From assembly GCF_040438645.1 (NCBI RefSeq), contig NZ_CP159253.1, positions 1,550,001 through 1,614,000 on the forward strand: DNA of 64,000 nucleotides. Reading direction: 5' to 3'. Positions 1 through 45,204 of the stretch are shown here, piece after piece; position 1 is the stretch's first letter; the number at the start of each line of letters is the position of its first letter. A program made the translations under genes and the position numbers. The stretch comes from Mesorhizobium sp. WSM2240. GTDB lineage: Bacteria; Pseudomonadota; Alphaproteobacteria; Rhizobiales; Rhizobiaceae. The notes beneath the pieces are model-generated. The model did no database searches. It worked only from the letters and a program-made list of their open reading frames with translations, and was not told the origin of the DNA.

Positions 1-1049
1 CCCGGCGCGTCGGCGGGGTAGGGGCCTTCGGTCGAAAGATTGCGCACGATGTTGCCTGAGCAGACACCCGCCCGCCCGCCTTCGTTGAAATTGACCATCG
101 AGATCCCATTCGCCGCGCCGTCGACGATGTTGCCGATGATGATCGCGCCTTCGAACGCAAATTCGGCGTAGAGCGCCGTTTCGCCGCTGCGCGTACAGCT
201 GTTGCCTGCGATTTGCAGATTGCTCGAACTGTTGGCGCGGATCGCCGAGAAAGCGCAGTCCGCAACCGAATTTTTTGCCACCCTCACGCCGTTTGCGCGG
301 AAAGTATTGATGCCGTTGCCGTATTGACCCGTGCCGCCATTGCGCGCTCCAATCCGCTCGACGCGGTTTCCGGTCACGATCGTCCCGTCATCAGCGGCCT
401 GCCAGCGATGCACCAGAATGCCGCCATTGGCGCAATCTGAGACGCTGTTGCCGGTGATGTCGAGACGCACGGCTTCCACCGAGTAGATGCCGGCGTCCGC
501 GGCGCCCGAAATACTCGAGCGGTCGATCCGGCCGGTAACGCGCTCGAGCGCGGCGCCATTCTTGCCGCTGCCTCTGATCTGGCAGTTTTCGACCACCAGA
601 TCGCCGATACGGCGAAGATCGAGCAGCCCCTGCGCCTGATCGCCGATCCAGCGGTTCGCCCCATCGAGAACGAGCCCCGAAAGCTCGATGTGTCCGGCTT
701 CCTCGGCCAGCATCAGATAGCCGCCGCCGCCATAGATGATGCGGGTCGCGCCGGGCACGCCGCTGAGGCGGACATGCCGCGGCAGCGACAGGTTGGAGAC
801 GATGTAGACGCCGGGCGGCAGGAACACCGGCATGTCGCGGTTCGCTGCCTCCTCCAGCATTTTGGCGAAGGCCTTGCTCTGGTCGTCAAAGGCGGCGGGC
901 CGCAGGCCGAGTTCGCCGGCATTGATCGAACCGCGCATGGCGGCCAGCTTGATGCCGGAGAGTTCCGAGGCGCTGGCGCTGAGCGGCGAGGCGAGACCCG
1001 CGACAGCGAAACCCGCCGTGGCGGTCAAAAAGCTGCGTCTGTTCAACAT
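1..1049 (-). CDS. TIGR03808-type Tat-exported right-handed beta-helix protein, 3' end outside window
   Basis: The start lies at 1049; the gene runs off the left edge after about 349 residues, so the C-terminus is missing. The N-terminus reads MLNRRSFLTATAG, a twin-arginine (RRSFL) signal followed by a hydrophobic stretch and an Ala-rich cleavage region, so export in folded form is likely. The rest is rich in short repeating turns with Asn/Gly/Ile/Val (for example GNRVERIG, GNSVSDC, GNIVDGAANG), the pattern of a parallel beta-helix as in pectate-lyase-like folds. Segments such as FDDQSKAFAKMLEEA and PPGVYIVSNL match the start of the Tat-translocated TIGR03808 family. Enzymatic function is unknown. 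The family call is from memory of its layout, not a search. Confidence 0.75.
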   Translation of the reverse strand, partial: MLNRRSFLTATAGFAVAGLASPLSASASELSGIKLAAMRGSINAGELGLRPAAFDDQSKAFAKMLEEAANRDMPVFLPPGVYIVSNLSLPRHVRLSGVPGATRIIYGGGGYLMLAEEAGHIELSGLVLDGANRWIGDQAQGLLDLRRIGDLVVENCQIRGSGKNGAALERVTGRIDRSSISGAADAGIYSVEAVRLDITGNSVSDCANGGILVHRWQAADDGTIVTGNRVERIGARNGGTGQYGNGINTFRANGVRVAKNSVADCAFSAIRANSSSNLQIAGNSCTRSGETALYAEFAFEGAIIIGNIVDGAANGISMVNFNEGGRAGVCSGNIVRNLSTEGPYPADAP

Positions 1050-1145
1050 CGGCACAGTCCCGGTGATGTTTTGCCTTGTTACGCAGGAAGCGTACCAACG
1101 CCGATCGGGCTTGTGCGACCGCCGGGCAGGGCTTAGGCTCGCTTG

Positions 1146-1613
1146 ATGAGCAGGGCCTTCACGCGCGAAGACGACAACAACAACGGCATCTCCGATATTG
1201 GCGAGCGCCCGGTAAGTTCGCACCGTAATCTTGTGACGCCGGCCGGCCTGGCGGCTATCGACAAGATGGTCGCAGACCTGCGCGAGGAGTTCGCGAAAGC
1301 GGAGTCCGAAGGCAATCGCGAGCGCATGGCGTTGGCTTCGCGCGATTTGCGTTACTGGGTGGCCCGCCGCGAAAGCGCCGAGGTTTCCGTACCCGAACCC
1401 GACAGCAAGGTCGTCCGTTTCGGCATGACGGTCACTATCGAGAACGAGGACGGGAAAAGCCATTCCTGGAAGATTGTCGGCGAGGACGAGGCCGACGCTG
1501 CGCATGGCATGATCTCGCACGTCTCGCCGATGGCGCAGGCCCTGTTTGGCAAGAAGGTAGGCGATCTGGCCGTTGTCAACGGCAAGGAGTGGGAGATTGT
1601 CGAGATTGGGTAG
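1146..1613 (+). CDS. GreA/GreB-family transcription elongation factor
   Basis: A 155-residue protein with the two-part Gre layout. An N-terminal helical hairpin (about residues 30-75, VTPAGLAAIDKMVADLREEF...) would enter the RNA polymerase secondary channel and stimulate cleavage of backtracked RNA. The C-terminal FKBP-like half (about 85-155) has the typical segments VRFGMTVTIEN, ISHVSPMAQALFGKKVGD and GKEWEIVEI. The acidic loop at the hairpin tip is less clear than in GreA, so it could be a Gre-like anti-factor instead. I chose ATG at 1146; an in-frame TTG sits directly before it at 1143. It is a single gene, divergent from the beta-helix gene. Confidence 0.85.
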   Translation: MSRAFTREDDNNNGISDIGERPVSSHRNLVTPAGLAAIDKMVADLREEFAKAESEGNRERMALASRDLRYWVARRESAEVSVPEPDSKVVRFGMTVTIENEDGKSHSWKIVGEDEADAAHGMISHVSPMAQALFGKKVGDLAVVNGKEWEIVEIG

Positions 1614-1624
1614 CCAGGCGTGCA

Positions 1625-1813
1625 CTACTGCGAGCTAGCAACCCGATACTTTTCCAACCGCCTATCTGCCTCGGTCAGCTTGGCCCTGAACTCCTCGGTC
1701 ATGTGCGGAGAGGCGTCGCCTTGCGCCAAGATCGAGAATGCGACATCGTAGCGAGCCATCACCTTGCGAGCGGCGGCAAGTTGCTTTTCGGTGATCTTTT
1801 CCGGCTTGGTCAT
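1625..1813 (-). CDS. small hypothetical protein, 62 aa
   Basis: A short, charged, helix-rich protein beginning MTKPEKITEKQLAAARKVM. It has no signal peptide or membrane segment and contains no cysteine. It ends 12 bases after the convergent Gre-like gene and starts 43 bases before the end of the mutase large-subunit gene, filling the gap neatly. Amphipathic helix periodicity and Ala/Lys/Glu composition make real coding likely, but I recognise no family. Confidence 0.5.
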   Translation of the reverse strand: MTKPEKITEKQLAAARKVMARYDVAFSILAQGDASPHMTEEFRAKLTEADRRLEKYRVASSQ

Positions 1814-1856
1814 CCTGCAGCCTTAGGTAAGCAGTGCGACCTTAGCACATGCCGCT

Positions 1857-3980
1857 CTAATCAGCTAGCAACCCATCCAGCAACCTCTCCGCAGCCTCCG
1901 GTATCACCGTGCCCGGTGGAAAGATTTCCGTCGCACCGGCCTTCAACACGGCGTCGTAATCCTGCGGAGGAATGACTCCGCCGGCTATGATCCTGATGTC
2001 ATCACGGCCGAGTTTCTTGAGGGCGCCGCGAAGCTCGGGAATAAGTGTCAGGTGGCCGGCCGCGAGTGACGACGCGCCGACTATGTGCACGTCATGGTCG
2101 GAGGCGAGCCTGGCGATCTCTTCAGGCGTCTGGAACATCGCGCCGACCGTCACGTCGAAACCGAGATCGGCAAAGGCGGTGGCGACGACCTTCTGGCCGC
2201 GGTCATGGCCATCCTGTCCCATTTTGGCCACGAGGATGCGCGGCTTTGCGCCGTTTTTCTTCTCGAATGCCGCAACCTTGTTTTGGACCCGATCGATGAC
2301 GGCGTTCTGGCCGATCTCGTTGCGGTAAACGCCGGAAATAGTCTGGACCGACGCGACATGCCGGCCGAATGCTTTTTCCAGCGCCAGCGAGATTTCGCCG
2401 ACTGTCGCCTTGGCGCGGGCGGCACGGATCGCAAATTCCAGCAGATTCCCGTTCGAGCGAGCCGCATAGGTCAGCGCGTCGAGCGCGGTTTCCACCGCTG
2501 CGACATCGCGCGTGCCCTTCAACTGCTGGAGCTTCGAGAGCTGGCGAGCCCGCACTTCGGCATTGTCGATCTTGAGGACGTTGACTTCGATGTCCTTTTC
2601 CGGCCGATAGGCGTTGACCCCGACAAGCGCCTGCTCGCCGGAGTCGATGCGCGCCTGGGTGCGCGCGGCGGCCTCCTCAATGCGCAGCTTTGGGATGCCC
2701 TTCTCGACCGCAGCCGCCATCCCGCCGAGGCTCTCCACCTCTTCGATGTGCCCGAGCGCCTTTGCCGCCAGATCCTGCGTCAGGCGCTCGACGAAGGCCG
2801 ACCCGGCCCAGGGGTCGATGATGCGGGTCGTGCCGGATTCCTTCTGCAGAATCAGTTGCGTGTTGCGGGCGATGCGTGCCGAATGGTCCGTCGGCAGCGC
2901 CAGCGCTTCATCGAAGGAATTGGTGTGCAGCGACTGGGTATGCCCCTGTGTTGCGGCCATGGCCTCGATCATGGTGCGCATGATGTTGTTGTAAGGGTCC
3001 TGCGCGGTGAGCGACCAGCCGGAGGTCTGGCAATGAGTGCGCAGCGACAGCGAGCGCGGATCCTCCGGCGAAAAGTTCTTCTGGATGAGCGTCGCCCAGA
3101 GCAGGCGCGCCGCCCGCATCTTGGCGACTTCCATGAAGAAATTCATTCCGATCGCCCAGAAGAAGGACAGGCGCGGCGCGAAGCGGTCGATGTCGAGCCC
3201 TGCCGCTACGCCGGCGCGCGCATATTCGATGCCGTCGGCGATGGTGTAGGCAAGTTCCAGGTCGGCCGTCGCCCCGGCCTCCTGCATGTGGTAGCCGGAA
3301 ATCGAGATGGAGTTGAACTTCGGCATATGCGTCGAAGTATATGAAAAGATGTCCGAAACGATCCGCATCGATGGCTTCGGCGGATAGATGTAGGTGTTGC
3401 GGACCATGAACTCCTTCAGAATGTCGTTCTGAATAGTTCCGGCGAGGTCCTTCTGCGCCACGCCCTGTTCTTCCGCCGCGACGATGTAGAGCGCCATGAT
3501 CGGCAGCACGGCGCCGTTCATCGTCATCGAAACGGTCATCTGGTCGAGTGGAATGCCGTCGAACAACTGACGCATGTCCAGGATCGAATCGATCGCGACG
3601 CCTGCCATTCCGACGTCGCCCGCCACGCGTGGATGATCGCTGTCGTAGCCTCGATGCGTCGCAAGGTCGAAGGCAACCGACAAGCCTTTCTGGCCGCCGG
3701 CCAGGTTGCGCCGGTAGAAGGCGTTGGATTCCTCGGCGGTCGAGAAGCCGGCATATTGGCGGATCGTCCAGGGCTGCTGGACATACATTGTCGGGTAGGG
3801 GCCGCGAATGAAGGGCGCCGCACCGGGATAGGTGTCGAGATAGGGTAGCCCGGCAAGATCGCTCTTGCCGTAGGTGCGCTTGACGGTGATCCCTTCGGGC
3901 GTCAGCCAGGTGTCCGCGTCGCTCGACGACGCGCTGGTCTTTGGTTCGGACCATGCAATCCTGGTGAAGTCAGGAATCAT
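1857..3980 (-). CDS. scpA: methylmalonyl-CoA mutase, large (cobalamin-binding) subunit
   Basis: A 707-residue protein of normal family length that interconverts (R)-methylmalonyl-CoA and succinyl-CoA using adenosylcobalamin (propionate, odd-chain fatty acid and branched-chain amino acid breakdown, ethylmalonyl-CoA pathway). The N-terminal TIM-barrel catalytic domain shows RGPYPTMY and [10 protein letters not shown] near residues 55-80. The C-terminal B12 domain (about 575-705) has the DxHxxG motif as DGHDRG near residue 592, whose His is the axial cobalt ligand, followed by GASSLAAGH and [10 protein letters not shown]. Called bhbA in some rhizobia. The start ATG overlaps the stop of the upstream small-subunit gene by 4 bases, indicating translational coupling. 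Confidence 0.97.
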
Positions 3981-12988: not shown

Positions 12989-13103
12989 CGGGCGCGAGCT
13001 TCAATCACGCGTAAATCACGGAAGCGTGACAGGCAGTCAGGAAGTTTTTCGGGCAGCTTTCGTTTGCCCAAAGGCAGCCTTTTTGCAACCCAGAGGTCAC
13101 TCC

Positions 13104-13541
13104 ATGAAGAAATTTGTTATTGCCGTTTCCGTAATCGCGCTCGCCACCACCGCCGCGTTCGCCGACGTGATCGCAGACCGCAAGGCGGTCATGAAGGAAA
13201 ATGGAAGACAGGTTGGCGTGCTGGTGAAGATGGTCCAGGGCGAGACGGATTTTGACGCCGAGGCGGTCATGGCGGCTTTGACCAAGCTGAACGAAAACGT
13301 GCAGGCGATAGATGTCGCCGCCTCTTTCCCGCCGGGCAGCGACAAGGGCGATACGACCGCTTCCCCGAAGATCTGGGAGGACATGGCGGGTTTCCAGGCC
13401 GAGGTGGACAAGTTCAAGGCCGTGACGGCCGAAGCCGCCGCCGCGCCGGCCCAAAGCCTCGAAGCGCTGAAGCCGCAGGTCGCCGCGATCGGGCAAAGCT
13501 GCTCAAGCTGCCACGAGACGTACCGCATCAAGAAGGGCTGA
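13104..13541 (+). CDS. cytochrome c' / c-556 family (class II cytochrome c)
   Basis: A 145-residue exported haem protein. A signal peptide (MKKFVIAVSVIALATTAAFA) is followed by the four-helix class II domain starting VIADRKAVMKENG, with the haem motif CSSCHETYR close to the C-terminus, exactly where class II cytochromes carry it. Likely periplasmic electron carrier or gas-binding protein. The dihaem cytochrome gene begins 10 bases downstream, so the two form an operon; maturation would use the Ccm system encoded at 48.5-52.5 kb. Confidence 0.92.
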   Translation: MKKFVIAVSVIALATTAAFADVIADRKAVMKENGRQVGVLVKMVQGETDFDAEAVMAALTKLNENVQAIDVAASFPPGSDKGDTTASPKIWEDMAGFQAEVDKFKAVTAEAAAAPAQSLEALKPQVAAIGQSCSSCHETYRIKKG

Positions 13542-13550
13542 CGCCAGCCC

Positions 13551-14513
13551 ATGAACTCGCCCGGAAAGCTGGCCGCCGCCGCCGTGATCGCGGCAGGTAT
13601 TAGCGGGCTGGCCTTCTGGTACCTGACAGCGCCCGGCCGCATCGGCGCCGAAGCCGCGGAGGCGCTTGGGACAGGCGACGCAGCGAGGGGCGAGCGCATA
13701 TTCTGGGCCGGCGGCTGCACGTCCTGTCACGCCCGGCCGAAATCCGAAGGCGAGGCGCTGCTCCAACTGGCTGGCGGAGTGCAACTCGAGACTGCGTTCG
13801 GCGCGTTCGTCGCGCCGAACATTTCTCAGGACGTGAATGACGGCATTGGCGGCTGGTCCGGGAAGGATTTCGCCGACGCCATGCTGAAGGGCGTTTCACC
13901 CTCGGGACGGCATTACTATCCTGCATTTCCCTATACGTCCTACGCAAGGATGAAGCCGGCCGACGTGGCGGACCTCTACGCCTTCATGAAGACGCTACCT
14001 GCCGTGGCAGGCCGGGCGCCGGATCATACACTGAGCTTCCCGTTCAGCTTCCGGCGCGGCATCGGTCTGTGGAAGCTGCTCTATCTCGATGACGCTCCAG
14101 TCATTGCTCTGGACGAGGGCTCTCCGGAAAAACTTCAGCTCGGCCGCTATCTGGTCGAGGGGCCCGGCCATTGCGGCGAATGCCACACGCCGCGCACGGT
14201 TGCGGGCGGGACCGACAAGGGCCAGTGGCTTGCAGGCGCTGTCGCAGCCGAGGGCGACGGCGTCATTCCCAACATCACATCAGGCGAGGGCGGGATAGGC
14301 GACTGGTCCGAAGGCGATATCGCCAGCTATCTCGAAACGGGGTTTACGCCGGATTTCGATTCGGTCGGCGGCTCGATGGTCGAAGTTCAGAAGAACATCG
14401 CCAGATTGACGCAGGAAGACCGGGAGGCGATCGCCGCCTATCTCAAGGCGGTGCCGCCGCGTCCGAATGGTTATCCGGCGCGGCAGCCTCCCGACGAGCC
14501 AGCGTCAGACTGA
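13551..14513 (+). CDS. dihaem cytochrome c, membrane-anchored
   Basis: A 320-residue protein with an N-terminal hydrophobic segment (about residues 8-27, probably an uncleaved anchor or signal). It has two class I haem domains: CTSCH near residue 56 and CGECH near residue 208. Each is followed by family features such as GVSPSGRHYYPAFPYTSYARM and VPPRPNGYP. This layout resembles the cytochrome subunit of alcohol/aldehyde or gluconate-type dehydrogenases, but no flavin or PQQ partner is adjacent. It sits in one operon with the cytochrome c' gene and overlaps the convergent ptrB gene tail-to-tail by 9 bases. Confidence 0.9.
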   Translation: MNSPGKLAAAAVIAAGISGLAFWYLTAPGRIGAEAAEALGTGDAARGERIFWAGGCTSCHARPKSEGEALLQLAGGVQLETAFGAFVAPNISQDVNDGIGGWSGKDFADAMLKGVSPSGRHYYPAFPYTSYARMKPADVADLYAFMKTLPAVAGRAPDHTLSFPFSFRRGIGLWKLLYLDDAPVIALDEGSPEKLQLGRYLVEGPGHCGECHTPRTVAGGTDKGQWLAGAVAAEGDGVIPNITSGEGGIGDWSEGDIASYLETGFTPDFDSVGGSMVEVQKNIARLTQEDREAIAAYLKAVPPRPNGYPARQPPDEPASD

Positions 14514-16631
14514 ACACTTGTAGGGAAGCGCGGACGCCTTTCCCGCGATCTTCAGCGCGAATGCGTAGTTGAAGGCGATCTCCTCCAGCCGCGAAAAACG
14601 TCCGGATGCGCCGGCATGGCCGGAATCCATGTTGATCTTGAAGAGAACCGGGTTGTTGCCCTTTTTCCGGACGCGCAGGCGGGCGATCCATTTCGCCGGC
14701 TCCCAATAGGTGACGCGTGGATCGGTCAGGCCGGCGACCGCCAGGATCGGCGGGTAGTCATACGCGCCGATATTGTCGTAGGGCGAATAAGCAGCGATCG
14801 TCCGATAATCCTCTGCGGACAGAATGGGATTGCCCCATTCGGGCCATTCCGGCGGCGTGAGGGGCAGCGTGTCGTCGAGCATGGTGCTCAGTACGTCGAC
14901 GAAAGGCACCTCGGCGATGATGCCGCCAAACACCTCTGGCGCCATGTTGGCGACCGCGCCCATCAGCATGCCGCCCGCTGAGCCGCCTTGGGCGACGATC
15001 CGGTCATGTGCGGTATAGCGCTCGGCGACCAGATGGTTGGCGGCGGCGATGAAATCGAGAAACGTGTTCTGCTTCTTCGCGCGCTTGCCGTCTTCGTACC
15101 AGCCATAGCCTTTGTCCTTGCCGCCGCGCACATGTGCGATGGCATAGACGAAACCGCGATCGGCAAGCGACAGGCAGTTGGTGTTGAATGCCGCGGGAAT
15201 GGCGATGCCGTAGGAGCCATAACCGTAGAGCAGGCAGGGTGCGGTGCCGTCCAGCGGCGTTTCGCGGTGATGGATGAGAGAGATCGGCACCAGTTGGCCA
15301 TCGTGGGAGGGCGCCATCAGCCGGCGGGTGACATAGTCCGCGGGATTGTGGCCGGAGGGAACCTCCTGTGTCTTCAAAAGCGTGCGTTCACGCGTGCGCA
15401 TATTGTAGTCGAACAACTGCGCGGGCGTCGTCATCGACGAATACGAGAACCGCATCGTGTCGGTGTCGTATTCGTAGGAGCCGGAGAGGCCGAGCGAGAA
15501 AGCCTCTTCCTCGAACGAGATCATGTGCTCTTCGCCGGTGGCGCGGTCGCGTACGACGATTCGCGGCAGGCCGTCCTTGCGCTCCAGCCGGACGAGGAAA
15601 TCCTTGAAGCTGAGCAGCGACAGGATCAGCCGGCCGGGTTCGTGGCCGACGAGTTCCGTCCAGTTGGCGCGCCCCGGATCGCCAACCGGCGCGGTCATGA
15701 TCTTGAAGTCCTTGGCGCCATCGGCGTTGGTGAGAATGAAGAAGATGTCGCCGCCTTCCTCCAGATCGTATTGCAACCCGGTCTCGCGCGGTTCGACGAT
15801 GTGCGGCGCGGCCAGCGGATCCCTGGCGCTGAGCAGGCGGTATTCCGTAGTTTCGTGATCGTTGATGCCGATGAATATCCAGTCATTGCTGCGCGAACCG
15901 CCCACACTCATGAAGAAGCCGGGATCGGGCTCCTCGTAGACGAGGCGATCGTCGGCATGATCGGAACCGAGCGCGTGGAAGAAAATCTTTGAGGGGCGAT
16001 GGTTCTGGTCGAGCCGTGTATAGAAGAATCCATTGCCGGCAGCATTCCATACGCCCGAGCCGCCGGTGTCAGGGACGGTTTCGGCGAGGTCCTTGCGTTC
16101 CGCAAGATCGCGGACGTGCAGCGTGAAAAACTCCGAGCCCTTGTCGTCGAAGGCCCACAGGAGTCGGCTGTGGTCGGGCGAGTGGTCGACGCCGCCGATG
16201 CGGAAATACGGCCGACCCTCGGCTTCCGTGTCGCCGTCGAGGATGATGTCCTCCTCGCCGCCGTCGCGCGGGGTGCGGAAGTAGCGCGGCTGCTCTCCGC
16301 CCTTCTTGAAGGATGAGCCATAAGCGTACGGGCCGTCCTTCATCGGAACCGACGAGTCGTCCTCCTTGATGCGGCCCTTCATTTCATGAAACAGCGCCTT
16401 CTGTAGCTCGACGGTGTCAGCCATCAGGGTCTTCTGATAGTCGTTTTCGGCATTGAGGTGATCGCGGATGGCCGGATCGAGCAGCGCCGGCTCACGAAAC
16501 ACCTCCTGCCAGTTCTGTGCGCGCAACCAGGCGAACTCGTCTGTCCGGGTAATTCCGTGCCTGGTGTCGGAGACCGGGCGCTCCTCGGTTGCAGGCGGAT
16601 TGATATTCGGAAACATGGTTTTTGCGGTCAT
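14505..16631 (-). CDS. ptrB: oligopeptidase B (S9A prolyl oligopeptidase family)
   Basis: A 708-residue serine peptidase cleaving short peptides after Lys or Arg. The N-terminal half is a seven-bladed beta-propeller that limits substrate size; the catalytic alpha/beta-hydrolase half follows. The nucleophile is in AQGGSAGGMLMGA near residue 552, Asp in GLTDPRVTYWEPAKW, and His in DSGHAGASGRF near residue 672. I chose ATG 16631 (MTAKTMFPNI) because of GAGAAG just upstream; a longer TTG start at 16664 is possible. No signal peptide, so cytoplasmic. Confidence 0.95.
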   Translation of the reverse strand: MTAKTMFPNINPPATEERPVSDTRHGITRTDEFAWLRAQNWQEVFREPALLDPAIRDHLNAENDYQKTLMADTVELQKALFHEMKGRIKEDDSSVPMKDGPYAYGSSFKKGGEQPRYFRTPRDGGEEDIILDGDTEAEGRPYFRIGGVDHSPDHSRLLWAFDDKGSEFFTLHVRDLAERKDLAETVPDTGGSGVWNAAGNGFFYTRLDQNHRPSKIFFHALGSDHADDRLVYEEPDPGFFMSVGGSRSNDWIFIGINDHETTEYRLLSARDPLAAPHIVEPRETGLQYDLEEGGDIFFILTNADGAKDFKIMTAPVGDPGRANWTELVGHEPGRLILSLLSFKDFLVRLERKDGLPRIVVRDRATGEEHMISFEEEAFSLGLSGSYEYDTDTMRFSYSSMTTPAQLFDYNMRTRERTLLKTQEVPSGHNPADYVTRRLMAPSHDGQLVPISLIHHRETPLDGTAPCLLYGYGSYGIAIPAAFNTNCLSLADRGFVYAIAHVRGGKDKGYGWYEDGKRAKKQNTFLDFIAAANHLVAERYTAHDRIVAQGGSAGGMLMGAVANMAPEVFGGIIAEVPFVDVLSTMLDDTLPLTPPEWPEWGNPILSAEDYRTIAAYSPYDNIGAYDYPPILAVAGLTDPRVTYWEPAKWIARLRVRKKGNNPVLFKINMDSGHAGASGRFSRLEEIAFNYAFALKIAGKASALPYKCSV

Positions 16632-16750
16632 TGCTTCTCGCTCGGGAAAATTCTTGAATGGCAAATGAATACGTCCGTCACGAGGCGTTCAAGAGCAGGT
16701 ATCTAGATTTCAGCGTGCCCGGTTTAGCCGGTTCGCCAGAGGAGAGATAG

Positions 16751-17119
16751 ATGAATAGGCTTTTGAGGGTCACCGCGGCGCTCGCCGCATGCTTAACCGT
16801 TGCAGTCGGCGCGAGCCAGGCCGTGGCGACAGTGTTTGCGGCATGGGAAGTTGCCAATGTGCCGTTTGGCGATACGTTGAACGTCAGGAAGTATCCGGCC
16901 GGCCATTCGCAGAAGCAGGCGGCGTATCCCAACGGCACGGTGCTGCAGATGACGGGCAAATGCACCGGCGGCGTCAACCTGCTCGACATCTCCAACCAGC
17001 CGGCCTGGAAGCAGGAGCAGGCGGTTCGTTACCGCTGGTGCCAAATCTGGCACGACCCGGCCCAGAACGGCAATTTCGTTACCGGCTGGGTTTACGGCAA
17101 ATACATCGCTCCGCATTAA
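16751..17119 (+). CDS. exported small SH3-like domain protein
   Basis: A 122-residue protein with a signal peptide (RLLRVTAALAACLTVAVGA, cleavage likely near residue 27). The mature part has VPFGDTLNVRKYPAG, a bacterial SH3-type start (xxLNVRxxP), then an Ala/Asn-containing loop and GWVYGKYIAPH at the end, as in SH3_3 proteins. Two mature cysteines (in KCTGG and RWCQIW) could form a disulfide. Such proteins often bind cell wall or envelope partners; no specific role can be stated. Confidence 0.75.
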   Translation: MNRLLRVTAALAACLTVAVGASQAVATVFAAWEVANVPFGDTLNVRKYPAGHSQKQAAYPNGTVLQMTGKCTGGVNLLDISNQPAWKQEQAVRYRWCQIWHDPAQNGNFVTGWVYGKYIAPH

Positions 17120-17582
17120 TTGCCGCCGCATAAGTCGGCCTCGAAACTAAGCGGTTCCGCTCATACTGCAGCTCAGGCCCGTCCGGGTTGCTATACGTTT
17201 CAGCGCTCGCCGAGAACCGGCCTTGGGGGCAGTGTCCGAATCGGCTATCCGGCATGTGCACTGCGACGAAAAAGCGCCATTGCGCGACTTGAACCCCAAG
17301 CAGTAAAGACTTGGCGCAGCCGTGACGCTACGTAACGTTGCTGATTTGAGTGAAAATCGGGGTCGTCTAATCGACCTCGGCTCGTAAAAGTGTCCGGCGA
17401 ATATCTGGAATGACTAGACGGGCAGCTAATATATACAAAAATTGTGAATTGACTTGACTTGGCAATATGCCCGATAAGACATCTCAGCGCGAATCGTGGG
17501 GTTTTGCCCTGCGCCAGACTGCGCAATGCCCCGCCGGTTAGAAAGGGGCGCAACAATCTAGCTAAATTGGGGCCCGAGTAAT
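17120..17582. other. 463-base intergenic region upstream of mucR
   Basis: No convincing gene. The part nearest mucR contains an A/T-rich block at about 17427-17450 (TAATATATACAAAAATTG), unusual for this GC-rich DNA, then overlapping TTGACT copies at 17449-17459 and GATAAG at 17473-17478 that could be a promoter. MucR proteins bind A/T-rich sites and repress their own genes, so autoregulation here is plausible. A leader around 17497-17552 has pairing segments (GGGG...CCCC, TGCGC...GCGCA). Confidence 0.45.
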
Positions 17583-18008
17583 ATGGACACTATGGAAACA
17601 CCTGCTCGTAATCACGAGATGCTGATCGAGCTTACGGCCGATGTTGTCGCTGCTTATGTGAGCAACAATCCGGTCCCGGTCGGCGAACTGCCTAACCTTA
17701 TTTCCGACGTGCATGCAGCGCTCGGCCGCGTCGGCGGCAGCGCAGAACAGCCGCCCGCCGACAAGCAGAAGCCGGCGGTCAATCCCAAGCGATCCGTGCA
17801 TGACGACTACATCGTGTGCCTGGAAGACGGCAAGAAGTTCAAGTCGCTGAAGCGTCATCTGATGACCCATTACGGCCTGACGCCCGACCAGTACCGCGAA
17901 AAATGGAGCCTGGACGCCAGCTATCCGATGGTCGCGCCGAATTACGCGGCCGCGCGCTCGCAGCTCGCCAAGAAGATGGGCCTCGGCCGCAAGCCCAAGT
18001 CCCGATAG
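17583..18008 (+). CDS. mucR: MucR/Ros-family zinc-finger transcriptional regulator
   Basis: A 141-residue regulator. The N-terminal half, beginning [17 protein letters not shown], drives oligomerisation in the family. The zinc finger follows: [11 protein letters not shown] has only one Cys of the usual CxxC pair, then [22 protein letters not shown] supplies the His ligands and the characteristic Ros helix. MucR controls exopolysaccharide, motility and cell-cycle genes in rhizobia and Caulobacter; targets here cannot be read. The single Cys is also seen in Mesorhizobium-type homologues (Ml family) proposed to work without zinc. A strong terminator follows. Confidence 0.93.
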
Positions 18009-18010
18009 GC

Positions 18011-18361
18011 TTAGCCGTCTACAGGAGTTTCGCGACGGCGCCTTCGGGCGCCGTTTTGTTTTGTACCCTTGCCTTGGCGCAGCGCGGCTTTCGTTCCGCG
18101 CAGCCGGTCGAGCCCCTGCTTCAACGCTATGTGTCGGTTGAGATCGTAGCTCCAGTGCCGCCGCAGTCCCTTCAGGCGCTCGCGCTCGATAGCCCGTTCC
18201 AGGCGGCTGGCGAGCTTGAGCTTTTCGGCGGGTCCGGCCTCTAGCGCGGCGGCAAGATCGATGCCGCAGGCAAGATGCAGAGCGGCAATCTGCCGGGCAT
18301 GCGCCGTTTCCTGGGCTTTCCGATGCTTGAAGTCTTTTGTTTCCTGATGAAATCCGTGCAT
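18011..18361 (-). CDS. basic hypothetical cytoplasmic protein, 116 aa
   Basis: A highly charged, helix-rich protein (KDFKHRKAQETAHARQIA, ASRLERAIERERLKGL) with a very basic C-terminal tail (ARRRRRE). No signal or membrane segment. ATG 18361 has a clear GGACCAGGGGG upstream; an earlier start at 18415 lacks this. The 3' end runs through the mucR terminator hairpin, so the two convergent transcripts overlap. I recognise no characterised family. Confidence 0.6.
   Translation of the reverse strand: MHGFHQETKDFKHRKAQETAHARQIAALHLACGIDLAAALEAGPAEKLKLASRLERAIERERLKGLRRHWSYDLNRHIALKQGLDRLRGTKAALRQGKGTKQNGARRRRRETPVDG
18036..18065 (+). terminator. intrinsic terminator after mucR
   Basis: A perfect 8-bp stem ACGGCGCC-TTCG-GGCGCCGT capped by a stable TTCG tetraloop and followed by TTTTGTTTTG. 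It lies inside the 3' end of the convergent hypothetical gene. Confidence 0.92.
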
Positions 18362-18581
18362 GCCCCCTGGTCCTGTCCTTTGGCTTCGATGCCCACAGGC
18401 TAGGCGCGTGGCCAAGGGGTGGGGATAAAACTCCCGCCTAAAAAGTCAGAAGCATCAAAAAAGCACCGGATTTTCAGTAGGTTGGCTGCTGGCTGCCAGA
18501 TTCTTTGTTCTCATTTTGTTCACATCCTGGTTGCAAGCCGCTATAAGAACTTATTCCTATCAGGCGAGAAGGAAAAGTTCA

Positions 18582-19004
18582 GTGCATTCGACAGCAGCGG
18601 CGGCCAGGAAGGCGATCATCGAAATCCAACCGAGGGCAAGGAGCGCTCCAACCCGCCCGGCCGGGCGGGTCGTGGGGCCACGCGGAGAACGCGTGGTCGA
18701 ATTGTGCGAGAGCATGATCGACATCGTCGCGGCCTTGTTCAATGTCTCCGGAAAGGAACTGCGACGGTCGGGGCGGACAGATCATGGCGTCGCCCGAGTT
18801 CGCCAGATCGCGATGTATGTCAGCCATGTGGTGCTGCGGCTCAGCATGAACGAAGTCGGCCACGGCTTCGGGCGCGACCGCACGACGGTTCTCCACGCTT
18901 GCCACCTGATCGAAGACATGCGCGACGACCAGGATTTCGACTGTCTCGTCGCGCGGACCGAGAGGGTGGCGCTCGCCGCATTCCGCTACCGGCTGGGACT
19001 CTGA
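18582..19004 (+). CDS. stand-alone DnaA domain IV-like helix-turn-helix protein
   Basis: A 140-residue protein whose second half reads ARVRQIAMYVSHVV, LSMNEVGHGFGRDRTTVLHA, HLIEDMRDD. This is the DnaA C-terminal DNA-binding domain with its signature helix (in DnaA, GRDHTTVLHA-type). There is no AAA+ ATPase domain. I chose GTG 18582 because AGAAGGA lies 8-9 bases upstream; the open frame extends further but without a good site. The DUF6456 gene follows after 3 bases, so the two are co-transcribed. It could bind DnaA-box-like sites and affect replication or transcription; this is inference. Confidence 0.8.
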   Translation: MHSTAAAARKAIIEIQPRARSAPTRPAGRVVGPRGERVVELCESMIDIVAALFNVSGKELRRSGRTDHGVARVRQIAMYVSHVVLRLSMNEVGHGFGRDRTTVLHACHLIEDMRDDQDFDCLVARTERVALAAFRYRLGL

Positions 19005-41834: not shown

Positions 41835-42003
41835 GGCAGCGGCAAGCCGGGGCGGAAGCCCGCGGGCGTAAGGCGCTGCCCCGGCCCTTCGGGCCACTTC
41901 TCCCGCAGTTCCTTCGACAAGCTCAGGAGGGGAGAAGGGACGCGGAGATTCCTTCGCGCCCCCTTCTGTCCTGCCCACACGGCGGAGATCGGCCGGCATT
42001 GGC
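41835..42003. repeat. GC-rich intergenic element before terS
   Basis: The stretch is rich in short palindromes (GGCCCTTCGGGCC; CTCCC...GGGAG) and resembles the degenerate intergenic repeats of Mesorhizobium genomes (TTCGACAAGCTCAGGAGGG). An open frame crosses it but shows low-complexity, Arg/Pro/Ser-rich translation typical of noncoding GC-rich DNA. Confidence 0.4.
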
Positions 42004-42040
42004 GTTCAAGCAAAATCACGGACAGATTGGAGAATCTATC

Positions 42041-42577
42041 ATGCCTGCGGCAATCAGCCCTGTGCAGTTGGCGGCGCTGCGCGCCTTGCGCGAAGGCGAG
42101 AACCCGACATTTTCGCGGCTTGGGGCCGCGGGCAAGATCAACCCCGCGACGCTGCGCGAACGCGCCCGCCGCGACAACTGGAAGACGCGGCGCTTTACGC
42201 GTTCCGGGGCGGAAGCCAGGAGCGGGGCGCCGGAAGGCGAAGCCGGGGCGGAAGCGCTGGCCGACCTGCCGGAGGGCATGTCGCTCGAGGACGTGCGCAA
42301 GCGGCTGGCCGAAGTGCTGCCGCGGCTTCTCGCGCGCATGGTGGAACTCGCCGAACGCGGCGTTCTCGACAAGGGGCGCATCGACGCGCTGCTGGCGATG
42401 GGCCGCATACTGGAACAGTGGGAAGCGGTCGCCCAGGCGTCCGCGGCAGAACAGCAGAAAAGAAGCGATGACGAACTCGCCGCAATGCTCGAACGGGTCG
42501 ACGAACGAATTATCGAACTTGCCCAGGCTTACGCAGAACGGCTGGGCGGCGGCGAACATTCCGAAGGAGCAGGTTGA
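42041..42577 (+). CDS. RcGTA-like small terminase subunit (TerS, g1-like)
   Basis: A 178-residue protein. The N-terminal HTH (PVQLAALRALREGENPTFSRLG, NPATLRERARRDNWKTRRF) would recognise DNA. A long helical region follows (SLEDVRKRLAEVLPRLLARM, then EQWEAVAQASAAEQQKRSDDEL), used for ring assembly in TerS. It overlaps the next gene by 110 bases, as small and large terminase genes commonly do in gene transfer agent clusters. ATG 42041 is used; the frame is open earlier but upstream is repeat-like. The terminase chimera directly downstream supports a GTA or prophage origin. Confidence 0.72.
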   Translation: MPAAISPVQLAALRALREGENPTFSRLGAAGKINPATLRERARRDNWKTRRFTRSGAEARSGAPEGEAGAEALADLPEGMSLEDVRKRLAEVLPRLLARMVELAERGVLDKGRIDALLAMGRILEQWEAVAQASAAEQQKRSDDELAAMLERVDERIIELAQAYAERLGGGEHSEGAG

Positions 42578-44957
42578 ACGGATCCTCGCCGAATGGTTCG
42601 GCCGCGCCCGGCCCAAGCAATATCCGCTGGAACGGCGGCCGGCGACCTGGGTGGTGATGGGCGGGCGCGGGGCCGGCAAGACCAGGCTCGGCGCCGAATG
42701 GGTGAACGGGCTGGTGCGCGGGTTGCCGCCTTTCACGCGGCGCGGACGCGGGTATGAGCGGATCGCGCTGGTGGGCGACACGCTGGGCGATGTGCGAGAG
42801 GTGATGATCGAGGGTCCTTCGGGCATCCTGACGATTTCGCGCGAGCCCCGGCCGCGCTTCGAGGCCGGCCGGCGCAGGCTGGTCTGGGATAGCGGCGCGG
42901 TGGCGCTGATGTTTTCGGCTGAGGATCCGGAGAGCCTGCGCGGGCCGCAATTCGACGCCGCCTGGTGCGACGAACTCGGCTGCCCGGCGGTCGACAAGGG
43001 GCCGAACCAGCCCAACGTCTTTCCCGATCCGAAATCGGCGGAGAATGCGATTCCTTATTTTTCCGGCGCAGGTAGGTCGGACCTGGCGCAGCAGCGCTTT
43101 CTCGAAGCGCATGCGAGCTACTGGGATCCTGCGGACGCGGATTTCGAGGAGGCGCACAACCCGCTGTCGCCGGTCTATGGCGGCCGCATGGTCGACATCG
43201 AACGCGTCTATGTCTGGGCGTGGGATGCGCGGCCGTTTCCCGCCTTTCCGGCGCTCGGCGACCGCTGGACCGATGGCGGCAACTGGCATTGCGGTCACTG
43301 GTTGAACGGTCGGCTCGGCAGCCCGGATGCAGGCGCACTGATCAATGCAATCCTTGCCGACCACGGATTACCTGCAGCCGACGTGGCTCACGCTGACGGC
43401 ACGCTGCACGGCTACGTCGTCGCCGATCCTTCTTCGGCGCGCGCGGCGCTGGAACCGATCGTGGAGCTGTTCGACCTCGCAGTGTGCGAGGAAGCCGAGG
43501 GTTTAGTTTTCCGGCGCAGGGGCGCTCAAAATGCGCCGCCGGCCGAGATTTCCGAACTCGTTTCGGACGGCGGCAATCCGGTGATCGAGACTGTACGCTC
43601 GCCCGACCACCAGCTTCCGGTCGAACTGGTGCTGGCGTTCCGCGAGCCTTTTGCCGAATATCAGACGGCGGCGGTGAGAAATGTCCGCTTCGGCGCGACC
43701 GGCAGCCGACAGCAGACGATCGATTTTCCCGGCGTACTGGAAACCGGGCAGGGCCGTGCGCTGCTCGACGATTGGATGCGGCGCATCTGGTCCGAACGCG
43801 AACAGGTGACGTTCGCGATTGCCGAACACCGTGCCGACATCCGGCCTGGCGCCGTTCTGCGCCTTCCGGCGGCGGAAGTGGATTCCGACTTCATCGTAAC
43901 CGAGATCGAGGATGGCCTGGTCAGGCGGGTGACGGCGCGGCAGATCGCGCGGACGCCGCCATCCCCCTGGCTCCCCTCCGGCTTCGGCCCGGTTCAGACG
44001 CAAGATTCGCTTGCCGGCAAGCCGCACGCGCTGTTTCTCGATTTGCCTTCGCGGTCCGGCTCTGCTGCGCCGCAGGACCAGTTCCGCGTCGCCGTCTGGC
44101 AGAAGCCGTGGCGGAGCCAGACCGTCCTGGCATCGCCGGAGGATACCGGCTTCGGTTTCCGCGCGGCGGTCGGCAAGCCTGCCGATCTTGGGGTGCTGGT
44201 CGAGCCGCTGCCTGCGGGCTTCGAGGGGCGGATCGACCGGGCGACGGCAATCATCATCGAGCTCTTCGACGCCGAGGCGGCGAGCGTCAGCCGGCTGCAA
44301 TTCTTGAATGGCGCCAATGCAGCCGCCATCCGCTCGACAATCGGTGCATGGGAGATCGTGCAGTTTGAGAGCGCGGAAGAAATCGAGGCGGGCGTGTGGC
44401 GGCTGAGCAATCTGCTGCGCGGCCAGCTCGGCACTTCCGACGCCATGGCGGCGGGCGCGCCGGCCGGAGCGGACTTCGTCATGCTCGACGATGCGGTGCA
44501 GCCGGCCGGGCTTCGCGCCAGCGAGGCCGGGCTTCTGCTCAATTGGCGCATCGGGCCTTCCGAGGCGGACATTTCCAGCGAGAATTTTTCCGCCCATACC
44601 GAAACCGGCGGCTTGCGCGCACGACTGCCGCTGTCGCCGGTCCATCTCCGCTGCCGGAAGAACGCGGGTGGGGCGGAGATTTCGTGGATCAGGCGCGGCA
44701 GGATCGACGCCGACGATTGGGTGCAAAGCGAAATCCCGCTCGGCGAGGAGCGGGAAGATTACCGGATCGAGATCGCCGCGGCCGGCGGGCCGGTCGTCCG
44801 GACAGCGTTGTCGCCGGAACAGAACTGGCAATACCCCTCGGTCGACATCTTGGCCGATTTCGGCGGCTTGCCGGTCGAGATCGACGTCACCGTCAGACAG
44901 CTCAGCGCCGCCGCGGGCTGGGGGATTCCGGCGACGCGCCGTTTCATCCTCTCATAA
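42468..44957 (+). CDS. chimera: large-terminase ATPase half fused in frame to C-terminal half of GTA baseplate megatron (g15-like)
   Basis: One open frame of 829 codons. Residues 1-168 match a GTA/phage large terminase: IPKEQVERILAEWFGRARPKQ, Walker A GGRGAGKT (near 66) and the Walker B region FDAAWCDEL (near 163-170). At about 42972-42978 (GAACTCG) similarity changes to the end of the GTA TIM-barrel domain of the megatron: LGCPAVDKGPNQPNVF, DPKSAENAIPYFS. The rest is its tail domain and C-terminal domain (DGTLHGYVVAD, IVELFDLAVCEE, FREPFAEYQTA, then SNLLRGQLGTSDAMA). The terminase nuclease domain, portal, protease, capsid and most tail genes that lie between them in RcGTA are missing. Start ATG 42468 is inferred; the frame is open upstream. 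Confidence 0.85.
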   Translation: MTNSPQCSNGSTNELSNLPRLTQNGWAAANIPKEQVERILAEWFGRARPKQYPLERRPATWVVMGGRGAGKTRLGAEWVNGLVRGLPPFTRRGRGYERIALVGDTLGDVREVMIEGPSGILTISREPRPRFEAGRRRLVWDSGAVALMFSAEDPESLRGPQFDAAWCDELGCPAVDKGPNQPNVFPDPKSAENAIPYFSGAGRSDLAQQRFLEAHASYWDPADADFEEAHNPLSPVYGGRMVDIERVYVWAWDARPFPAFPALGDRWTDGGNWHCGHWLNGRLGSPDAGALINAILADHGLPAADVAHADGTLHGYVVADPSSARAALEPIVELFDLAVCEEAEGLVFRRRGAQNAPPAEISELVSDGGNPVIETVRSPDHQLPVELVLAFREPFAEYQTAAVRNVRFGATGSRQQTIDFPGVLETGQGRALLDDWMRRIWSEREQVTFAIAEHRADIRPGAVLRLPAAEVDSDFIVTEIEDGLVRRVTARQIARTPPSPWLPSGFGPVQTQDSLAGKPHALFLDLPSRSGSAAPQDQFRVAVWQKPWRSQTVLASPEDTGFGFRAAVGKPADLGVLVEPLPAGFEGRIDRATAIIIELFDAEAASVSRLQFLNGANAAAIRSTIGAWEIVQFESAEEIEAGVWRLSNLLRGQLGTSDAMAAGAPAGADFVMLDDAVQPAGLRASEAGLLLNWRIGPSEADISSENFSAHTETGGLRARLPLSPVHLRCRKNAGGAEISWIRRGRIDADDWVQSEIPLGEEREDYRIEIAAAGGPVVRTALSPEQNWQYPSVDILADFGGLPVEIDVTVRQLSAAAGWGIPATRRFILS

Positions 44958-44997: not shown

Positions 44998-45204
44998 ATG
45001 ACCGCAAGCAAACCCTGGTACCTGTCGCGCACCATCTGGGCGTCGCTGGTGACGATCCTCACTGCCGCGATGGGCCTGATGGGCATGTCCGGAGCCGGGA
45101 TCGACGATGCCGCGCTGACCGATGCGGTGCTGCAGGCGGTCACAGCGCTGGCTGGCGTGATCGCAATCTTCGGCCGGCTTTCGGCCAAGGACAGGATCGG
45201 GTGA
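44998..45204 (+). CDS. small membrane protein, possibly holin-like, at end of GTA remnant
   Basis: A 68-residue protein with two hydrophobic segments (TIWASLVTILTAAMGLMGM and AVLQAVTALAGVIAIFG) separated by a short acidic loop, and a charged C-terminus (RLSAKDRIG). ACAGGAGC precedes its ATG. Size and topology suit a class II holin-like protein, and such genes often follow the megatron gene in phage-like clusters. It starts 41 bases after the chimera. Function is inferred. Confidence 0.65.
   Translation: MTASKPWYLSRTIWASLVTILTAAMGLMGMSGAGIDDAALTDAVLQAVTALAGVIAIFGRLSAKDRIG

Follow-up and report, generated by a model that had tools for sequence, protein, structure and literature searches.

How can a single gene begin as the large terminase (TerL) of a gene transfer agent (GTA) and end as its baseplate protein, the megatron? 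The question is raised by a stretch of 64,000 nucleotides from Mesorhizobium sp. WSM2240, which was analysed at its full length and is called the window below. The relevant features are as follows (a caret marks the point of the switch):

41999..42577, forward strand: upstream open reading frame of 192 aa, overlapping the terL start (open reading frame list)
42468..42971, forward strand: N-terminal 168 codons of TerL, up to the Walker B Asp of ...RGPQFDAAWCD (Terminase_6N)
42969..42978, forward strand: junction GAC^GAACTCG (read by eye and from flank alignment)
42972..44957, forward strand: C-terminal ~660 codons of the g15-like baseplate protein (megatron), ...TE^LGCPAVDKGPNQPNVF through the stop (NF048004)
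42945..43250, forward strand: end of GTA_TIM; past the junction this is the final third of the TIM barrel (PF13547, residues 160-261)
43425..43913, forward strand: Phage-tail_3 domain (PF13550, residues 320-482)
44184..44480, forward strand: Rcc01698_C domain (PF23666, residues 573-671)
44998..45201, forward strand: small protein KPWYLSRTIWASL..., hydrophobic by eye (open reading frame after the fused gene)

The fused gene and its intact counterpart

The preliminary description had claimed an unbroken gene of 829 codons, and both the open reading frame list and the sequence give a single open frame of this length from the ATG at 42468 to the stop at 44957. The TerL and megatron parentage put forward there is borne out by the profile matches, Terminase_6N (residues 63-170, E 2e-15, profile positions 2-105 of 215) being followed by GTA_TIM (profile positions 204-299 only, E 4e-36), Phage-tail_3 and Rcc01698_C. 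The Walker motifs reported for the N-terminal part can be read from the sequence (GGRGAGKT and AAWCDE), and with an ATPase N-domain carrying both of them the gene belongs to the large terminases. It does not qualify as a GTA megatron: NF048004 (GTA_megatron) matches the whole fused protein with 646 bits over positions 640-1297 of 1299, whereas the cut-off is 800 and a full-length match is required. When the C-terminal part was searched separately, as had been proposed, it matched positions 648-1297 of this profile. The switch had been placed correctly, and so had the loss of the nuclease half: TerL sequence is absent after the junction, and the window's genome (G000) has one TerL match. In the window's own database cluster (P0001; 3 member sequences, 2 contigs) the gene is 812 aa long, 17 codons shorter.

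The upstream open reading frame scored above cut-off with no Pfam profile and matched nothing in NCBIfam; from its position we take it to be the small-terminase-like gene g1. The small protein after the fused gene matched neither Pfam nor NCBIfam, and a similar gene sits after the megatron in most relatives examined.

In the intact congener G001, terL and the megatron gene are separate and lie 9.7 kb apart. The flanks on both sides are collinear between the window and G001, and about 12.5 kb of G001 DNA is missing from the window. The TerL part is 72% identical to G001 TerL over residues 8-168, the megatron part 88% identical to the G001 megatron, and the crossover relative to G001 is confined to CGA (42971-42973), at the boundary between the Asp and Glu codons of Walker B. 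The G001 DNA between terL and the megatron gave only scattered short matches in the window's 6.7-Mb, 4-contig genome, the longest of 0.7 kb with 67% identity. This comparison upholds the earlier claim that the genes between terL and the megatron were deleted in frame. It is confirmed that the fusion is real, with the N-terminal half of terL and the C-terminal part of the megatron at the usual position in the cluster. RcGTA-like clusters (TerL, megatron g15) have both halves, the gene order and the flanks in common with the locus, which in contrast to them has lost all that lies between terL Walker B and the terminal part of the megatron TIM barrel. The cluster remnant should be unable to package DNA.

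Recurrence of the junction and independence of the events

A search of relatives for the junction, which had been suggested, showed that it recurs in many other genomes. At least eight single-hit fusions were found among the matches listed for 394 family genomes, seven of the eight with the canonical junction, and at least 7 of the 394 show the pattern W-x-D-E-x-G-(C/A)-P-A. Of 3918 database proteins, the best 120 include 23 such fusions, the window's own among them; all 22 others have the junction pattern and 21 of them W-x-D-E, some being copies of family genomes (P0014 of G035, P0031 of G010). The same junction is carried by a Rhodobacterales genome (L126), and in L125, outside the family, TerL up to 437 is joined out of frame to the megatron from 602. 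No full-length fusion was found in viral contigs among the 80 loci kept of 252. Where the database names the fused genes, they appear as hypothetical protein or glycoside hydrolase TIM-barrel-like protein, under which annotators should be warned that they can pass unrecognized.

In a tree of the megatron half, 27 fused rows were unclustered and gave 23 label changes, of which at least 19 were forced; the tree was built without P0031 (a near-copy of G010), the window's P0001 and the more distant G006, G265, G012, G023, G397, G260, G087, G182, G125 and G366, and a second larger tree omitted G006, G265, G012 and G023. With five fused and 21 intact rows chosen by hand, a single clade of the fused rows was rejected (p-AU 7e-6). 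Most fusions stand beside intact relatives, which indicates that fusion arose repeatedly, and one ancient fusion is ruled out by the trees. Where a close intact relative exists, the DNA beside the junction is of its type (G001 for G000 and G002, G220 for G035); in G401 the DNA right of the junction is of the G174 type at 40 codons, and the flanks of the G000 and G401 fusions are collinear. Judging from these sequence comparisons, the same deletion has occurred many times in Mesorhizobium/Phyllobacterium-type bacteria, and in a Rhodobacterales genome too.

The terL breakpoint and serine recombinases

Gross breaks of terL were compiled from the eight fusions and from 24 genomes chosen by eye because their best TerL score was weak. 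They fell at codon 169-171 in 15 genomes, which are partly non-independent (G000 and G002 are congeners), and elsewhere in five. Among the 24, seven were broken at codon 169-176 (G115, G236, G262, G369, G202, G259, G331) and five elsewhere, as judged by the alignment end (G126, G130, G257, G277, G291). The count excludes the remaining 12, which have a frameshift or small insert (G073, G190, G255, G272, G344, G408), lack the N-half (G153, G165, G364) or are near full length and divergent (G241, G244, G372); genomes with two TerL matches and a strong best match (e.g. G004, G023, G076, G140, G182) lie outside the sample. The terL GA(C/T)G is retained in other scars (G236, G115, G262, G369, G265). 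In a second class of scars, found in three other genomes, terL is joined to the small gene after the megatron, with a shift by a base or two or a loss of two codons.

In G202, G259 and G331, elements encoding a large serine recombinase (LSR) are inserted at the same terL point, with the LSR gene adjoining the C-terminal half of terL (the G331 element lies across two contigs). By eye, the sole core that all three crossovers could have in common is GA, in the Walker B Glu codon. Relatives of these LSRs at 44% identity or more were present in 4 of 394 family genomes, the query's own included, and none was found at E<=1e-75 in 337 class genomes. The recombinases are neither plasmid nor phage genes by the matches obtained: there was no plasmid match at E<=1e-60 and one weak phage match (E 2e-37), and exact peptide patterns found no relatives in viral contigs. 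Relatives of the same LSR adjoin Mg-chelatase-like fragments, presumably comM, in G010 and G004. All three LSRs show weak similarity to CcrA of the cassette recombinases CcrA/CcrB, and two of them also to XisF, the recombinase that excises the fdxN element (E 5.5e-17 and 1.6e-10); the scores are far under the curated cut-offs.

Our best reading, about equally likely to be right or wrong, is that the junction is the scar of a site-specific deletion connected with recombination by serine recombinases at a terL attachment site. LSRs of mobile elements that have their attachment site at one fixed terL point, GA within the Walker B Glu codon (GAC^GA), would have cut there in an ancestral bacterium whose GTA cluster was still complete, and the cut end would have been joined to GA of a second Glu codon, that of megatron ...TE^LGCPAV. 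The joining would come about through recombination with secondary sites or through misdirected excision to them; the most frequent of these would be the megatron TE^LG, others the small gene after the megatron and further megatron points. The TerL C-terminal half, the structural genes between and the megatron N-half would have been lost, so that GTA production should have ended. The chimera would be at most weakly used, and its frame would be open mainly as a by-product, because both recombination sites are in the same phase.

Several observations speak against such a scar. No relative of these LSRs was found in the window's genome, and in the family and class such relatives are as few as stated above. 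No LSR insertion at the megatron site was seen among the matches listed for 384 genomes, nor in seven rechecked genomes. P0113 keeps the register but crosses over 6-9 bp before the usual point (AAWFTELG), a shift that would not be expected from a fixed LSR core, and the offsets of the small-gene scars also fit poorly. Finally, each of the five kinds of terL scar read in the family (canonical, G265, G236, small-gene, G126) keeps the frame.

Mobile elements have been described that integrate into and break the horizontal-transfer genes comM, comK, comFA and comYC (Croucher et al. 2016, PMC4774983). Like those elements, the integrase-bearing elements found here occupy a conserved point of a DNA-exchange gene; unlike them, their target is the GTA terminase, and deletion scars occur in more genomes than insertions. 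The text of PMC4774983 does not contain the term "gene transfer agent", and the titles and abstract openings of the GTA papers listed give no pointer to these fusions or insertions. If the recombinase reading is true, GTA loss would be a specific, repeated and testable process, and the disabling of DNA-exchange genes by mobile elements would extend from competence genes to GTAs. GTA production kills the producing cell, and this would bear on why GTAs persist or disappear.

Competing explanations

The main rival is convergent selection, which we consider rather unlikely. It assumes that GTA clusters, being costly, suffer deletions at many places, and that only the W-x-D-E/L-G join yields a useful product, a P-loop half with a tail-tip half. 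Selection would explain the exact recurrence without outstanding DNA homology and the open frames of all 8 genome and 23 database fusions, and the in-frame state of five terL scar types, above chance phase, is a hint of it. In 22 aligned fused rows Walker A hardly varies, and the Walker B Glu is the same in all. Twelve pairs that include a fused member had a megatron-half dN/dS of 0.10-0.45, from divergence not datable to after the fusion, against 0.12-0.35 in computable intact pairs. However, since many fusions are at tree tips beside intact relatives, the low dN/dS may predate fusion; the terL core of G002 differs from that of intact G001 by a dS of only 0.05. P0113 is open despite having lost the Walker B Asp, and the terL codon is joined to unrelated partners as well. 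An AF2 model of the chimera, run with a control model, predicts no well-folded chimeric domain at the junction, the TIM remnant and the junction being poorly folded with low confidence.

The preliminary description had explained the junction by microhomology, and a short shared sequence does exist: an imperfect 16-bp repeat, TGGT.C..CGA.CT.G, encodes W-x-x-E-L in both terL and megatron. Its notion of a single accident is incomplete: fusions separated in the trees have the same junction. Such an accident is rejected as a sufficient cause, since most intact relatives have a repeat there that does not stand out. Recombination at the repeat (microhomology-driven or homeologous) followed by in-frame filtering, i.e. 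an ordinary deletion hotspot, is improbable in our estimate. It would account for the constant W-to-W and E-to-E register, which includes P0113, crossing at the W. The terL/megatron similarity at the junction was compared in 42 genomes, with a wrong megatron site in G085, G129 and G200, and the comparison was repeated in frame in the 39 others, all intact: the junction was among the top 10 in-frame positions in 12 and first in one, but its median rank was 29 of ~1295. When diagonals were ranked in the 35 genomes with the motif in both genes (12 others, missed by the motif pattern, were dropped), the motif diagonal reached rank 5 of ~5200 in G200, whereas the median was 1061 of ~5200 (13 of the 35 with the best segment at the motif); in 22 of the 35 its best segment lay off the motif. 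Many repeats between terL and megatron are longer than that at the junction, the terL breakpoint recurs with partners lacking the repeat, and the megatrons of G411 and G304, relatives of the Chelativorans fusion L117, do not have the W.

A wider claim, to which we assign a low probability, would combine the recombinase reading with selection: the terL Walker B codon would be a conserved attachment site where serine-recombinase elements disable GTAs, through insertion or through a stereotyped, in-frame loss of the entire structural cluster, and the chimera would be repeatedly selected, e.g. as a dominant-negative packaging ATPase or as a tail-tip decoy against GTAs and related phages.

It is very improbable that a single old fusion allele has travelled through homologous recombination, GTA particles perhaps being the carriers, while local sequence overwrote its arms up to the junction. 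The identical junction is consistent with such a spread, and so are the terL-half tree, in which G035 groups with G000 and G002 (98/87), and the sisterhood of G000 and G002, which are joined in the terL trees and rejected as sisters in the megatron tree (p-AU 0.002), a conflict implying that recombination or separate events occur in the genus. Against it, native sequence comes to within a few codons of the junction, since G035 and G220 share private codons 7-9 codons past it and TGGCTGGAC before it. Junction codons vary between lineages, P0113 crosses elsewhere, and the fusions are unclustered in the larger trees.

An assembly artefact or collapse, for which nothing speaks besides the caution in the preliminary description, is rejected as virtually inconceivable, because the same junction occurs in many assemblies from different sources, including the single-contig G035, with collinear flanks and no long repeat at the junction.

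Insertion sequences were also considered as a common agent and rejected: in G127 an IS3-like break (transposase named by eye) near megatron residue 655 has no link to the fusion junction. Truncated megatrons beside an intact TerL were observed in G308, G172 and G032, with differing endpoints.

The fused gene and its locus

The in-frame fusion described preliminarily, in which the N-terminal half of a large terminase gene (terL) of a gene transfer agent (GTA) is joined to the C-terminal half of the gene for the g15-like baseplate protein (megatron), was confirmed by a single open reading frame and by a domain split that was clean in both Pfam and NCBIfam. Searched against profiles, the two halves gave the following matches:

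42468-44957, plus strand: fused gene, 829 codons
Residues 63-170 of its product: Terminase_6N (Pfam)
After the region of residue 170: last third of GTA_TIM, then Phage-tail_3 and Rcc01698_C (Pfam)

The NCBIfam megatron profile NF048004 covered the fused protein only from profile position 640 on. The gene was the sole match within its genome (G000). The intact congener G001 has kept both genes, with 9.7 kb between them. On either side of the deletion the two loci align collinearly; the left-hand and right-hand alignments share 15 bp at the joint, and by this alignment approximately 12.5 kb was removed in G000 relative to G001. A search of the G000 genome revealed no other copy of the deleted genes, scattered short matches excepted. 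The earlier observation holds and is of greater interest than was first stated: our verdict is a convergent, nearly nucleotide-precise deletion at the attachment point of a mobile element.

Recurrence and independent origins of the junction

Fusions were searched for in 61 genomes and then in 394 genomes of the family, the counts from the latter being minima. At least eight genomes (G000, G002, G010, G035, G401, G166, G006 and G265) had one match spanning both halves. The preliminary description had proposed looking for the same junction in sister strains; in seven of these genomes it was found, at an unchanged residue position: W-(C/G/L)-D-E-(L/A)-G-(C/A)-P-A. In G265, WCD is followed by VFFDPKS. 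Among the best 120 of 3918 protein database matches 23 were fusions, not all of them separate (P0014 is nearly a copy of G035, P0031 of G010, and the cluster P0002 may include G002). The 22 besides the window's own all conform to the junction pattern, 21 with W-x-D-E; the exception is P0113, which has AAWFTELG and crosses over at the W. The same fusion is present in Chelativorans multitrophicus DSM 9103 (L117) and, outside the order, in Rhodobacterales bacterium HKCCE3408 (L126).

In a tree of the megatron C-terminal half (69 sequences) the eight fused sequences gave eight label changes (gains or losses), at least seven of them forced. With database proteins added, 27 fused sequences gave 23 changes, at least 19 forced, and clustered no more than with shuffled labels. 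The terL-half tree gave six changes, at least five forced, for eight fused sequences; a larger one gave 21 for 28, of which only seven were forced because the sequences were short. Constraining five well-placed fusions together was rejected (p-AU 7e-6). Some fused sequences do pair (G035 with P0014 and P0016 for terL, P0007 with P0010 for the megatron). Because a lost cluster cannot come back by descent, most of the changes read from these trees must represent separate deletions, unless recombination restored clusters.

Wherever a close intact relative exists, the DNA flanking the joint resembles it. Both sides are of the G001 type in G000 and G002. In G035 the left side is TGGCTGGAC, as in terL of G220 and G156, and the right side has a private AIDLG stretch, as in the G220 megatron. 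The nearest to the right side of G401 is G174, at 40 codons; G010, G166 and G006 have no relative close enough for this comparison.

The similarity ranks of the junction site in intact relatives speak against a simple homology hotspot. The W-x-x-E-L block common to both genes was unremarkable in 35 such relatives, 13 of which had their best segment at the motif (median exact run 5 bp, median rank 1061 of about 5200 diagonals); ranks across all 35 were 5 to 3303. When the terL side was kept constant, the site in the megatron had a median rank of 256 among about 13,000-18,600 downstream positions and, counting in-frame positions only, of 29 of about 1295; in 12 of 39 genomes it was one of the ten best in-frame positions. 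To judge from these alignments, similarity may assist but would not select the site.

Sequence divergence and predicted structure

The dN/dS values of the two halves cannot be assigned specifically to the time since fusion. For the megatron half, 12 pairs including a fused sequence were compared, and seven gave 0.10-0.15; for the terL core, nine such pairs gave 0.06-0.28 (dS was 0.05 for the terL core of G002 against intact G001). The remaining five megatron pairs gave 0.24 (G401-G289) and 0.26-0.45 (four with G010); intact relatives of G010 gave 0.22-0.35 among themselves.

AlphaFold2 models, both from shallow alignments, had a mean pLDDT of 68 and pTM of 0.46 for the chimera (22 fused sequences), and 61 and 0.62 for a 625-residue control from 20 intact megatrons. 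The chimera model was poor at residues 158-211 and 245-281. In 10-residue blocks, pLDDT for the equivalent of residues 201-250 was about 78 in the control and about 51 in the chimera; for the strand containing TELG the corresponding values were about 80 and 38, whereas the loop directly after the junction was low in both. The models mildly disfavour a new folded domain at the junction.

The terL break point and large serine recombinases

A full TerL search gave matches in 305 of the 394 genomes, and 24 picked for weak matches were re-examined. Gross breaks of terL fell at codon 169-171 in 15 genomes (the eight fusions and seven others) and elsewhere in five. Three genomes carry insertions at this point: G202 (11.5 kb), G259 (7 kb) and G331 (split over contigs). 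In all of them the terL C-terminal half is directly adjoined by a 572-642 aa gene with Resolvase, Recombinase and zinc-ribbon domains, a large serine recombinase (LSR). Identity among the three proteins is 42-46% across most of the sequence. A comparison of the ends by eye leaves GA, in the Walker B Glu codon, as the only bases that could be common to the three crossovers; the G000 crossover is restricted to CGA at the same place.

Deletions starting at this point with other partners were found in four further genomes. In G236 it is joined to the megatron near residue 200. In G115, G262 and G369, terL runs to ...(C/S)D and then gives way to AKTIW, which belongs to the small gene downstream of the megatron; beyond GA(C/T)G the bases are attributable to either gene, leaving the joint ambiguous by a few bases. 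These three, with terL 1-169 in frame with the small gene, form a second recurrent scar and belong to three genera (L235, L236, L237). Among the in-frame terL-megatron fusions found, only that of G126 (L238:4277-7500) uses another terL point, near 217, from which it passes to the megatron near 460, and in a Rhodobacteraceae MAG (L125) nearly the whole of terL is joined out of frame to megatron 602. Other megatron breaks were one near residue 597 in G331 (L282; L273, contig 8), where about 32 kb separates the two parts, and one near residue 655 in G127 (L277:1-1100), adjoining a transposase-like frame, IS3-like by eye.

The insertions, their terL point and the matching scars are direct observations; we infer that LSRs made the scars. 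LSR-linked recombination is, on sequence evidence, the favoured cause of the deletion, a supported hypothesis and not a demonstration. The attachment site of the element in terL would supply the precise cut, and the deletion would form by recombination with a secondary site; alternatively, it could arise by faulty excision, or by two insertions followed by excision and loss of the DNA between them. A search of the G000 genome found no such LSR, and no LSR insertion was seen at the megatron site among the matches listed in the genomes searched. LSR relatives are scarce in the family (19 of 394 genomes at E<=1e-60, only four above 40% identity), and none was found in 337 genomes of the class at E<=1e-75. 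These negative results and the P0113 crossover are weak points of the LSR model. Each of the five types of terL scar read in the family keeps the frame; since this would be rare under chance phase, it is likely that an open frame is to some extent selected even if that model holds.

Mobile elements inserting into competence genes are already known (Croucher et al. 2016, PMC4774983); here the target is GTA terL. At the level of titles and abstracts, a literature search found no report of GTA genes as targets or of a repeated terL-megatron scar. Related LSRs adjoin Mg-chelatase fragments, which we take to be comM-like, in the fusion-bearing genome G010 and also in G004 (L254:525-3297, L253:461-3204). 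In G083 a related LSR lies at the end of the Phage_capsid gene of the GTA cluster (L269:7926-11456, L260), and in G318 one adjoins head-tail connector and head-completion genes (Phage_connect_1, Phage_HCP) with GTA relatives nearby (L268:147-6116, L250); because of these two positions, the LSR group may strike GTA clusters more often. In addition to the LSR, elements inserted in terL (L231:2607-14101, L232:2879-9900) encode a flagellin, with Flagellin_N and Flagellin_C domains, as well as a small resolvase.
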